Of a stretch of DNA of 64,000 nt, positions 25,068-31,141 are shown piece after piece. Each line of letters opens with the position of its first letter. Position 1 is the first letter of the stretch. The translations under genes were made by a program, and so were the position numbers. Source of the stretch: Rhodoplanes serenus (GTDB taxonomy: Bacteria > Pseudomonadota > Alphaproteobacteria > Rhizobiales > Xanthobacteraceae); the NCBI GenBank assembly GCA_009720755.1, contig WNKV01000006.1, positions 124,001-188,000 of the forward strand, read 5' to 3'. A model generated the notes under the pieces. It ran no database searches and was not told where the DNA came from. It saw only the letters and a program-made list of their open reading frames with translations.

Positions 25068-26477
25068 TCAGCCCGAATAGTACATCTCGAACTCGACCGG
25101 ATGCGGGGTGTGCTCGAACTTGATCACCTCGCCCATCTTCAGCTCGATATAGGCGTCGATGAAGTCGTCGTCGAAGACGCCGCCGGCCTTGAGGAAGGCG
25201 CGGTCCTTGTCGAGCGCCTCGAGGGCCTCGCGCAGCGAGCCGCACACGGTTGGGATCTGCTTCAGCTCGGCCTTCGGCAGATCGTAGAGGTCCTTGTCCA
25301 TCGCCGGGCCGGGATCGAGCTTGTTCTTCACGCCGTCGAGGCCGGCCATCAGCATGGCCGCGAAGGCGAGATAGGGGTTGGCCAGCGGATCGGGGAAGCG
25401 GACCTCGACGCGCTTGGCCTTCGGGTTGGTGGTGTAGGGGATGCGGCACGAGGCCGAGCGGTTGCGCGCCGAGTAGGCGAGCAGCACCGGCGCCTCGAAG
25501 CCCGGCACCAGCCGCTTGTAGGAGTTGGTGGTCGGGTTGGTGAAGGCGTTGATGGCCTTGGCGTGCTTGATGATGCCGGCGATGTAGGACAGGCAGGTCT
25601 CCGACAGGTCGGCGTACTTGTTGCCGGCGAACAGCGGCTTGCCGTCCTTCCAGATCGACTGGTGGCAGTGCATCCCCGAGCCGTTGTCGCCATAGATCGG
25701 CTTCGGCATGAAGGTGGCGGTCTTGCCGTAGATGTTGGCGACCATGTGGATGCAGTACTTGTAGGTCATCAGCATGTCGGCCATGTAGGTCATGGGCGCG
25801 AACTTGATGCCGAGCTCGTGCTGGGCCGAGGCCACCTCGTGGTGATGCTTCTCGACCTTCACGCCCATCTTGGCCATGGCGGCCAGCATCTCGGAGCGCA
25901 TGTCCTGCGCCGAGTCCTGCGGCGGCACCGGGAAGTAGCCCTTCTTGAAACCGATGCGATGGCCGAGATTGCCGCCCTCGTAGTCGGTGGCGCCGTTGAT
26001 CGGCAGCTCGATGGAGTCGAGCTTGAAGCCGCAGGCGTAGGGGTCGGCCTGGAACTTGACGTCGTCGAACACGAAGAACTCGGCCTCGGGGCCGAAATAG
26101 ATGGTGTCGCCAATGCCCATCGACTTCACCAGCGCCTCGGCCTTCTTGGCCATGCCGCGCGGGTCACGGTTGTAGGGCTCGCCGGTGGTCGGCTCGAGCA
26201 CGTCGCAGACCAGCACCAGGGTGGTCTCGGCGAAGAACGGGTCGATGGTGGCGGTGGTCGGGTCCGGCATCAGGCACATGTCGGACTCGTGGATCGCCTT
26301 CCAGCCGGCGATCGACGAGCCGTCGAACATCACGCCCTCCGAGAAGGTCTCCTCCTCGATCTGGGAAATGTCCATGGTGACGTGCTGCCACTTGCCGCGC
26401 GGGTCGGTGAAGCGCAGATCACAGTACTTTACGTCGTTGTCCTTGATCAGCTTCAGCACGTCCTTGGCCGTCGTCAT
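25068..26477 (-). CDS. glnA: Glutamine synthetase type I
   Basis: A 469-residue glutamine synthetase (GSI-beta). Landmarks are [31 protein letters not shown], the metal-site [11 protein letters not shown], the ATP motif [25 protein letters not shown] and the substrate motif NRSASCRIP. The adenylylation tyrosine is in DKDLYDLP. It makes glutamine from glutamate, ammonia and ATP and is the main ammonium-assimilation enzyme. It follows glnB with a 97-base gap, the usual alphaproteobacterial order, and has its own terminator. The ATG at 26477 is preceded by AAAGGACGAT. Confidence 0.97.
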
Positions 26478-26574
26478 CGAGTATCGTCCTTTGCGTTGAG
26501 AGATCGTCGCGGTTCAGGGTTTTTCGGCGGGCGGGGGGCTCGGCCGGCCCCGGGCGCGGAGCGGAGGGTGCGGG

Positions 26575-27368
<794 letters not shown>

Positions 27369-29182: not shown

Positions 29183-30457
29183 ATGACCAACCTGCAATCT
29201 CTACTGGAGACGAAGGAGGCGATGCCGCTCGGCGCCTGCCTCGGGTGGCGGTCCGACCTGATCTCGCTGCACGTCGCCTCCGACGTGATCATCGCGGTGT
29301 CGTTCCTGTCCATTCCGATCGTCCTCGCGGTGTTCGTATCGCGGCGCTCCGATCTCGCCTTCGGCTGGGTCGCCTGGGCTTTCGTGGTGTTCCTGGCGGC
29401 CTGCGGGGCCGCCCATCTGCTCGACATCTGGACCATCTGGCGCGCCGACTTCGGGGCCGAAGGCATCGTCAAGGCGGTCACCGCCGTCACGGCGCTCGCC
29501 ACCGCCATCGCGCTCTGGCTGCTGCTGCCCAAGGCGCTGGCGCTGCCCTCCGCCGGCGAGCTGCGCCGCGCCGTCGAGGCGCTCCGCCAGCAGATCCGCG
29601 AGCGCGACCTCGCCCTCAAGGCGCTGGAGCGCGAGCGCGAGGAGCGCCGCCGCGCCGAGGAGATGCTGCGCCAGGCCCAGAAGATGGAGGCGATCGGCCA
29701 GCTCACCGCCGGCATCGCCCACGACTTCAACAACCTCATGACCGCGGTGATCGGCAACCTGGAGCGCGCCCGCCGGCTGCTGCCCCAGGAGGGGTGCCGC
29801 CAGCTCGCCCGCGCGATTCGCGGGGCTGCGCTGGGGGCCGAGCGCGCCGGCGTTCTCACCCATCGGCTGCTCGCCTTCGGGTGCCGCCAGCCGCTTGCGC
29901 CCAATGTCATGAACGTCAATGATGTGCTGGAGCACCTCGCCGACACGCTGCGGCGGACACTGGGCGGCAACATCCGGGTGGTGAGCAACCTCACCTTCGA
30001 CCTGTGGCCGACCCGCGTCGACGCCGACGCCCTCGAAAGCGCCATTCTCAATCTCGCCGTGAATGCCCGCGACGCCATGCCCGAGGGGGGGAACCTGGTG
30101 ATCACCACGCGCAATGTCGCGGCCGCCGACCCGCTGGTGGCGCAGCTCGGCCTGGCGGCGGCGGACTTCATCGAGATCGCCGTCGCCGATACCGGCATCG
30201 GCATGACCGAGGAGGTGGCGAGCCGGGCGTTCGAGCCGTTCTTCACCACCAAGCCGCTCGGCGTCGGCTCCGGGCTCGGCCTGAGCCAGGCCTACGGCTT
30301 CGCGGTGCAGTCGCATGGCACCGCCGTGCTCGACAGCACCGCCGGGCATGGCACCACCGTGAAGCTCTATCTGCCCCGCGCCCAGATCGCGGCGACCCCC
30401 AGCTTCTCGCGCAGCTTCGCGCCCGGACTGCTCACCAAGGCTGCGGCGTGTCCATGA
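29183..30457 (+). CDS. Histidine kinase with ethylene-receptor-like membrane domain
   Basis: A 424-residue hybrid of two recognisable parts. Residues ~29-117 are three membrane segments that align with the ethylene-binding domain of plant ETR1. SDxxIAxxxFxSIP (Asp34, Pro45) matches ETR1 Asp25-Pro36, and CGAAHL (Cys74, His78) matches the copper-binding Cys65/His69; the Pro-to-Cys spacing is 29 residues in both. ETR1 Tyr32 is Phe here. A coiled coil (~125-165) leads directly into the kinase: H-box QLTAGIAHDFNNL (His180), N-box NLAVNARDAM, and ATP boxes VADTGIGM and GSGLGLSQAYGF. There is no GAF or PAS domain. The start has GGAGG upstream. The stop overlaps the next gene, a response regulator. 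Confidence 0.88.
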   Translation: MTNLQSLLETKEAMPLGACLGWRSDLISLHVASDVIIAVSFLSIPIVLAVFVSRRSDLAFGWVAWAFVVFLAACGAAHLLDIWTIWRADFGAEGIVKAVTAVTALATAIALWLLLPKALALPSAGELRRAVEALRQQIRERDLALKALEREREERRRAEEMLRQAQKMEAIGQLTAGIAHDFNNLMTAVIGNLERARRLLPQEGCRQLARAIRGAALGAERAGVLTHRLLAFGCRQPLAPNVMNVNDVLEHLADTLRRTLGGNIRVVSNLTFDLWPTRVDADALESAILNLAVNARDAMPEGGNLVITTRNVAAADPLVAQLGLAAADFIEIAVADTGIGMTEEVASRAFEPFFTTKPLGVGSGLGLSQAYGFAVQSHGTAVLDSTAGHGTTVKLYLPRAQIAATPSFSRSFAPGLLTKAAACP

Positions 30458-30861
30458 GCGAGCCCCAAGCCCAGCAGAGCGGCGTGACGGTCCTCATCGT
30501 CGAGGACGAGCCGCTCGTCCTCGACATGATCTCCCAGGAGCTGACCGACCAGGGCTTTGCGGTGCTGGAGGCCGATACCGCCGAGGCGGCGCTGTCGATC
30601 ATCCAGAGCGGCCAGCCGGTCGACGTGCTGTTCACCGACATCCGCCTGCCCGGCGAGATGGATGGCTGGCGCCTCGCCGCCACCGTGCGCGAGCAGAAGC
30701 CGGAGCTGCCCGTCATCTACGCCACCGGCTACACGGTCGAGCGCGCCTCCCAGGTGCCCGGCAGCGTGTTCCTCAAGAAGCCCTACCGCCCGTCGGCCAT
30801 CGCCGAGACGATCCGCAGCCTGATGGCGGGCGAGGGGGGCGGCAACGGCTCCGCCAACTGA
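30454..30861 (+). CDS. Single-domain response regulator (CheY-like)
   Basis: A 135-residue receiver domain only. The acidic pocket is VEDEP, the phospho-acceptor Asp is in LFTDIRLPGEMDG, Thr/Ser-like switch in YATGY, and Lys in FLKKPYRP. There is no output domain. It overlaps the kinase stop by ATGA, so it is the cognate partner. Without an output domain it must act by protein contact or as a phosphate relay. The C terminus is short and Gly-rich. Confidence 0.92.
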   Translation: MSEPQAQQSGVTVLIVEDEPLVLDMISQELTDQGFAVLEADTAEAALSIIQSGQPVDVLFTDIRLPGEMDGWRLAATVREQKPELPVIYATGYTVERASQVPGSVFLKKPYRPSAIAETIRSLMAGEGGGNGSAN

Positions 30862-31056: not shown

Positions 31057-31141
31057 GCGGGCGTGGCGGAACTGGTAGACGCGCTGGATTTAGGTTCCAG
31101 TGACGAAAGTCGTGGGGGTTCAAGTCCCTCCGCCCGCACCA
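31057..31141 (+). tRNA. tRNA-Leu (anticodon UAG)
   Basis: An 85-base tRNA with encoded CCA. The acceptor stem is GCGGGCG/CGCCCGC. The anticodon stem CTGGA/TCCAG encloses TTTAGGT, with TAG at 31091-31093, and a long variable arm typical of Leu tRNAs follows. The T-loop is GGTTCAAGTCC. It lies 78 bases upstream of tig. Confidence 0.97.

Follow-up and report, generated by a model that had tools for sequence, protein, structure and literature searches.

The window analyzed here, a stretch of 64,000 nucleotides of Rhodoplanes serenus DNA (assembly GCA_009720755.1, contig WNKV01000006.1, positions 124,001 to 188,000 of the forward strand), carries at 29183-30861 a sensor histidine kinase gene and a response regulator gene whose stop and start codons share a 4-base ATGA overlap. 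An earlier reading made from the sequence alone (the original prediction) had described them as an ethylene-receptor-like kinase with a coupled CheY-like regulator, and its coordinates (29183-30457 and 30454-30861) and gene overlap are as stated there; the observation is confirmed as real and correctly described. The features of the pair, in window positions, are as follows.

29183..30457, + strand: sensor histidine kinase gene, 424 aa (ATG at 29183, stop TGA at 30455-30457)
29258..29545, + strand: ethylene-binding-type three-helix membrane domain, residues 26-121 (Pfam PF25487 ETR1_N, E 8.3e-32)
29282..29284, + strand: Asp34 (ETR1 D25), from the alignment to ETR1
29303..29305, + strand: Phe41 (ETR1 Y32), changed; Tyr in 4 of the 6 genus members
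29312..29317, + strand: Ile44-Pro45 (ETR1 I35-P36), from the alignment to ETR1
29393..29395, + strand: Leu71 (ETR1 I62), changed; Leu in five of six genus members, in none of the 52 other non-HWE loci (sample below)
29402..29404, + strand: Cys74 (ETR1 C65), presumed copper ligand, from the alignment to ETR1
29414..29416, + strand: His78 (ETR1 H69), presumed copper ligand; replaced by Gln in sibling L038 (also L161)
29471..29473, + strand: Lys97 (ETR1 K91), from the alignment to ETR1
29552..29686, + strand: helical linker, residues 124-168 (low-confidence structure model; no PAS or GAF match)
29720..29722, + strand: phospho-acceptor His180 in the motif AHDFNN, within a sub-threshold HisKA match
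30020..30382, + strand: HATPase_c domain, residues 280-400 (E 2.7e-16)
30454..30861, + strand: single-domain response regulator gene, 135 aa (PF00072 Response_reg, E 2e-20)
30637..30639, + strand: presumed phospho-acceptor Asp62 of the regulator, by motif

The original prediction had proposed a profile search for an ethylene-binding domain, and residues 26-121 of the kinase do belong to the ETR1_N family, with 109.8 bits against a curated cut-off of 27. None of 14 control genomes matched this profile, so the match is not a generic membrane match. In the alignment to ETR1, whose letters were checked by residue numbering, Asp34, Pro45, Cys74 and His78 fall on D25, P36, C65 and H69 and Phe41 falls on Tyr32, as had been predicted. 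Both copper ligands of ETR1 (Cys65 and His69) are thus kept, and a second departure, ETR1 I62 to Leu71, can be added to the one already described. The ETR1 residues required for binding (D25 Y32 I35 P36 I62 C65 H69) reportedly come from mutagenesis by Wang in 2006. Pfam finds no PAS or GAF domain in the window kinase up to E 1, which bears out the claim that none lies between sensor and kinase core. An AlphaFold2 model built from three sequences has long helices at residues 24-54, 58-87 and 91-118, followed by a continuous helix from 124 to 199 that enters the kinase; its confidence is low (mean pLDDT 54.4, pTM 0.38), and it supports the helix boundaries only, not the geometry of the copper site. 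Against the PDB, the sensor had no match below E 0.43, and the six rows at 0.43-0.6 were designed Pizza6 proteins, taken as chance. The two named matches of a genome scan were both from Bradyrhizobium, at 53-54% over the sensor.

The comparisons below draw on an ETR1_N profile search of two samples. It matched 42 of the 297 genomes taken from the order and 28 of the 385 taken from the class; G000 and G035, at the least, are in both. Stretches of 3-14 kb (median 10.3 kb) were fetched for the tabled matches except four weak or broken ones (G207:C1, G180:C40, G494:C31, G494:C139). Tabled matches, five other genus loci and five named loci made 82 loci, and 81 after L157, which has no sensor match, was dropped. 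By motif, 23 of these carry an HWE kinase and 58 do not, the latter including short frames without a kinase; some genomes contribute two or three loci. The idea that Phe at ETR1 position 32 is a family trait did not hold up, as Tyr stands there in 4 of the 6 genus members and 45 of the 52 other non-HWE loci.

Within the genus the pair is stable. Kinase orthologs are present in all six genomes (68-100% identity, its own genome included), each adjoined by the regulator, and the regulators are 92-97% identical to that of the window. In the window the pair lies downstream of the NAD(P)H-hydrate epimerase/dehydratase gene (nnr) and is followed by tRNA-Leu (31057-31141) and then the trigger factor gene (tig), and it likewise lies between nnr and tig in all five other genomes, where the L162 contig holds just the end of nnr. 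The dimerization and histidine phosphotransfer (DHp) domain is 87-100% identical across the genus and the catalytic and ATP-binding (CA) domain 76-92%, with 47-93% for the sensor. Asp34, Cys74 and Lys97 are invariant in the six genomes, and other pocket residues vary. Written as the seven positions listed above, it reads DYIPLCH in L035, L036 and L037, DFIPLCH in the window, DYIPFCQ in L038, where the copper-ligand His is lost, and DFIALCH in L039, where the Pro is lost.

On balance, and with a confidence somewhat above even, we read the locus as a membrane two-component pair of the bacterial ethylene-receptor kind, which would sense a small olefin, most likely ethylene, at Cu(I) and signal by phosphorelay to the overlapping regulator. 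The three transmembrane helices would form the pocket, in a dimer by analogy with ETR1, with Cu(I) between Cys74 and His78, and the olefin would bind there with an affinity possibly altered by the Y32F and I62L changes. Binding would then change the long continuous helix 124-199 that runs directly into the kinase, which would autophosphorylate at His180 and presumably pass the phosphate to Asp62 of the regulator. Because the regulator has no output domain, it must act by protein contact or by handing on the phosphate, to a presumed downstream target. For the similar AzoEtr1 of Azospirillum, its authors predict in the available text that ethylene inhibits autophosphorylation (PMC11819568).

In favor of this reading, five of the seven ETR1-required residues and Lys97 are kept in the window kinase and both changes are mild. 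Outside the genus, locus L093 has a homologous pair (kinase 53%, regulator 56% identity) with all seven residues. The strength of the ETR1_N match, the conservation of both genes and of their position in the genus, the hybrid-kinase model shared by kinase and regulator, the fused form in Bradyrhizobium and the ethylene binding of the similarly built AzoEtr1 also count for it. Several points weigh on the other side. The window kinase has five of the seven residues rather than the full set, and none of the six genus members has all seven (DYIPICH), versus 39 of the 52 other non-HWE loci (Fisher p 7e-4, from related and so not independent rows). Identity to AzoEtr1 is ~46% for the sensor and ~30% for both kinase and regulator, so the kinase and regulator are not closely related to those of AzoEtr1 and transfer of its function is weak. 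A search of the host genome for 1-aminocyclopropane-1-carboxylate deaminase gave no match, other olefin-forming or olefin-using enzymes not having been searched for. When the window is compared with each of its five siblings, the ratio of nonsynonymous to synonymous substitution rates (dN/dS) comes to 0.21-0.37 for the sensor but 0.09-0.13 for the kinase. A second genus of the family (g2, five genomes) has no such gap, with 0.06-0.19 and 0.07-0.18. Two further control sets gave 0.05-0.26 for sensor and 0.08-0.20 for kinase (three fused hybrids), and 0.15-0.28 and 0.20-0.34 (three kinases that join an ethylene-binding domain to an HWE core, here EBD-HWE). Among the three DYIPLCH siblings the values are 0.08-0.18 and 0.08-0.14, one of the three pairs having 0.18 versus 0.08.

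The strongest alternative is that the domain, though derived from an ethylene receptor, has ceased to sense ethylene in this genus, the same fold now reading copper or redox state, another small molecule or the state of the membrane, with the kinase and regulator retained. We regard this as possible, at well under even odds. It gains from the pocket variation inside one genus (DYIPLCH three times, then DFIPLCH, DYIPFCQ and DFIALCH) and from the recurrence of changed pockets elsewhere, at L110, L111, L119 and 16 of the 23 HWE loci. It gains further from branch lengths measured on the fixed kinase topology after removal of the pocket columns (kept tips being DYIPICH or DYIPLCH, and L004 left out for its zero kinase branch). 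The sensor/kinase ratio is 4.9 on the window branch, 3.6 for L038 and 3.5 for L039, versus 0.4-2.1 on 14 kept tips; altered tips outside the genus have 3.8, 2.4 and, for L110, 1.2. Asp, Pro, Cys, His and Lys are, however, all kept in the window, and a simple drift story is countered by the ratios of two DYIPLCH siblings (1.7 and 2.1) and of two internal branches of the genus, both short (12.0 and 6.7); with these and the L110 value, fast sensor evolution and pocket change are not strictly coupled. The Mann-Whitney p of 3e-4 is optimistic, since the altered tips number only six and some of them are related. On a freely built sensor tree the window ratio is 2.5, and support for the branching order within the genus is weak. 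Relative to its kinase the sensor evolves fast, above all on the branches of the window, L038 and L039, and we take these values as indications that the classic pocket is under weaker constraint in the genus, again best seen on those three branches.

What the original prediction said of an ethylene-receptor-like kinase with a coupled regulator is thus supported by the profile, the residues, the overlap and the presence of the pair in 6/6 genomes. Its case for the ligand is weaker than claimed, with two of seven residues changed and siblings whose His or Pro is replaced; because two ETR1-required residues differ, ethylene as the ligand of the window sensor is plausible but unproven. What makes the finding interesting is the pocket drift among the genus members. 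Nature here offers a set of variants (DYIPLCH, DFIPLCH, DFIALCH, DYIPFCQ) that share a conserved kinase and regulator, and comparing them could reveal the residues that ethylene sensing really needs.

Another explanation, that the sensor is mostly a membrane anchor and dimerizer and that other inputs set kinase output, we consider improbable. The sensor is indeed less conserved in the genus than DHp and CA, and no PAS or GAF match is there to carry another signal, but sensor dN/dS is below 1 in every genus pair (0.08-0.51) and the invariance of Asp34, Cys74 and Lys97 in six genomes also speaks against a mere anchor.

The kinase core has the motif residues H180, N294, D336, G338, G340, G362, G364 and G366, although HisKA (residues 172-215) scores 22.7 bits, under the Pfam cut-off of 26.9. 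The regulator has E17, D18, D62, T91 and K109, which we take by motif to fill the usual receiver roles, and apart from Response_reg its Pfam matches are all under their cut-offs. The kinase core has PDB matches to 5idj ("Histidine kinase", 3e-41) and 5idm (CckA, 5e-26). The NCBIfam hybrid-kinase model PRK13557 covers the window kinase with model positions 146-399 and the regulator with 410-538, and the regulator's two best curated models are the hybrid kinases PRK13557 and CckA. Neither protein reaches the full-length cut-off of PRK13557 (the kinase scores 257.8 bits where 631 are needed), and the kinase also falls short for CckA, with 247.2 bits of 1000. Within the genome, the regulator's first match (46%, on C1) is followed by eight (on C33, C13, C44, C12, C33, C6, C22 and C19) that are receivers sharing frames with matches of the window kinase, and in Bradyrhizobium jicamae (L003) the receiver is fused to the sensor kinase. 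From the shared model, these in-genome relatives and the fused form, the pair is best read as a hybrid kinase of the CckA/PRK13557 type carried by two genes, the regulator resembling the receiver half. The "CheY-like" of the original prediction is loose: the regulator's best curated models and eight of its nine nearest in-genome relatives are hybrid-kinase receivers. That the regulator is a CheY acting on the flagellar motor, and the pair a taxis system, is the least probable explanation: its single receiver domain would fit, but its closest models and most of its nearest in-genome matches are of the hybrid-kinase kind, and loss of AzoEtr1 left swimming unaffected according to the available text of PMC11819568. 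A kinase tree sets the genus apart from the other loci together with L093, L119 and L075 (98/94). All of these have a separate receiver, and their order within the group is weak; a sensor tree did not recover this grouping. At L119 (G218) the kinase-regulator pair is related to that of the window, and its sensor keeps Cys and His with the other five pocket residues changed (GCVLVCH, a weak alignment).

The design itself has precedents. In the available text of PMC11819568 (2025), AzoEtr1 of Azospirillum binds ethylene and its overlapping 135-aa regulator has no output motif. AzoEtr1/AzoRR-Etr1 of Azospirillum brasilense thus resembles the window pair in its N-terminal ethylene-binding domain, kinase and overlapping output-less 135-aa regulator in an alphaproteobacterium, and the window has the overlapping single-domain regulator gene of such a pair (ATGA, 135 aa). 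AzoEtr1 differs in being 525 aa long, with a PAS domain between sensor and kinase and all seven residues, whereas the window kinase has no PAS match. The AzoEtr1 kinase and regulator comparison used L169 (strain Sp7), since the frame in L074 (A. brasilense MTCC4038) comes to just 207 aa. SynEtr1 of Synechocystis likewise has an ethylene-binding domain feeding a kinase and regulator, but also senses light and acts via the regulator slr1213 and a small RNA (via the same available text, PMC11819568). In the literature found, as far as its available text goes, functional evidence for bacterial ethylene receptors covers these two, SynEtr1 and AzoEtr1.

Among other relatives, Bradyrhizobium L003 (B. 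jicamae) and L004 (B. lablabi) have the same sensor-kinase order and 53% kinase identity, L003 without a PAS match, but differ in their C-terminal fused receiver and in keeping all seven residues. A pair on plasmid p2 of Novosphingobium sp. ES2-1 (L075), annotated "ATP-binding protein" and "response regulator", has a minimal 384-aa sensor kinase and an overlapping receiver gene like the window, but keeps all seven residues and lies on a plasmid typed as conjugative. Plant ETR1 shares the sensor domain and the copper-site spacing. It differs from the window kinase in its GAF and fused receiver domains. Plant receptors also depart from the working expected here in signaling mainly without their kinase, according to the available text of PMC11819568.

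That its minimal build makes the pair unusual is not supported. A protein size of 370-460 aa, as expected without PAS or GAF, is found in 27 of the 58 non-HWE loci (six of them from the genus), or 21 of 52 without the genus; length is a proxy for minimal architecture, and Pfam searches of three of the 27 (window, L093, L075) found no PAS in any. An output-less paired regulator of 135 aa has moreover been published for AzoEtr1. As minimal size is common among the sampled loci and AzoEtr1 is a published near twin, the window pair belongs to a known kind of bacterial ethylene-receptor pair, and the pocket pattern in the genus is the new part. According to the available text of a 2020 review, predicted ethylene-binding domains occur in many proteobacteria, and the outputs attached to them range from simple to complex (PMC7700396). 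Sensor-only frames of 135-142 aa also occur, at L128, L132, L135 and L155, with other frames after them (after L128 a kinase frame, = L047), and may be split or stand-alone sensors.

ETR1_N is matched twice in each of the six genus genomes, although in G300 the second match does not reach the cut-off. In the window's own genome the second match belongs to the following gene.

G000:C5, L116 5926-7773, outside the window: second ethylene-receptor-type kinase, with ETR1_N, two PAS_4 stretches and HWE_HK

Its neighbors are PhyR (NF006623, 288.5 bits, cut-off 240) and an extracytoplasmic function (ECF) sigma factor gene. The pocket of this second copy reads EFILLSH, without the copper Cys, in five of the six genus genomes. 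In the remaining one, whose assembly is 58% complete, the match (L168) is weak and partial and reads DLILLLH. A PhyR-like frame lies upstream of the second copy in four genus genomes; L164 has less than 0.6 kb upstream, and no such frame lies in the 3.5 kb upstream of L168. Over all loci, the fetched stretch contains a PhyR-like frame in 17 of the 23 EBD-HWE loci versus 1 of the 58 others (Fisher p 1e-11). That sole non-HWE case, L088, is an HDFNN-type hybrid of sensor, kinase and receiver, and the frame lies 2.3 kb upstream of it.

HWE kinases are already known to act on PhyR (PMC12148442, available text), so the new element is the sensor and not the neighborhood. In open-licence literature, none of the matches listed that join PhyR with ethylene-receptor terms has a title or abstract start on the subject, and a few (a banana survey, a Brucella paper) hold terms from both sides. 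The full seven-residue pocket is kept at seven EBD-HWE loci, four of which have PhyR in the stretch, upstream of L101 (2.6 kb) and L103 (1.5 kb) and downstream of L096 (2.7 kb) and L100 (4.5 kb); none was found in the stretches of L097, L098 and L107. Because these four keep the full pocket, ethylene could feed the general stress response there. A broader proposal, which we put forward tentatively as the less likely account, is that the ETR1-type domain serves generally as a three-helix sensor module and that both genus copies may have left or be leaving ethylene sensing, the window copy with its phosphorelay kept and its copper site drifting, the second feeding the general stress response via HWE and PhyR; in some other genomes of the order with a full-pocket EBD-HWE-PhyR arrangement, ethylene may gate that response. 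If true, the link between an ethylene-receptor domain and a PhyR-adjacent HWE kinase makes a testable claim on inputs to the alphaproteobacterial general stress response. Beside the pocket drift, this link is a by-product.

The host is probably a nitrogen-fixing purple phototroph, since it has nif and bacteriochlorophyll genes. Eight PF00148 matches in its genome (G000:C9, G000:C11) have NifD, K, E and N and BchN, B, Y and Z as best models; NifE and BchB score highest on a sister model under its cut-off while passing that of their own model, and BchZ is a partial stretch under the cut-off. No vanadium, iron-only or other nitrogenase-like enzyme is among the eight. Just upstream of nnr in the window, on the opposite strand, lie glnA and a P-II gene (25068-26913), and in Azospirillum glnB expression is lowered by ethylene, according to the available text of PMC11819568.
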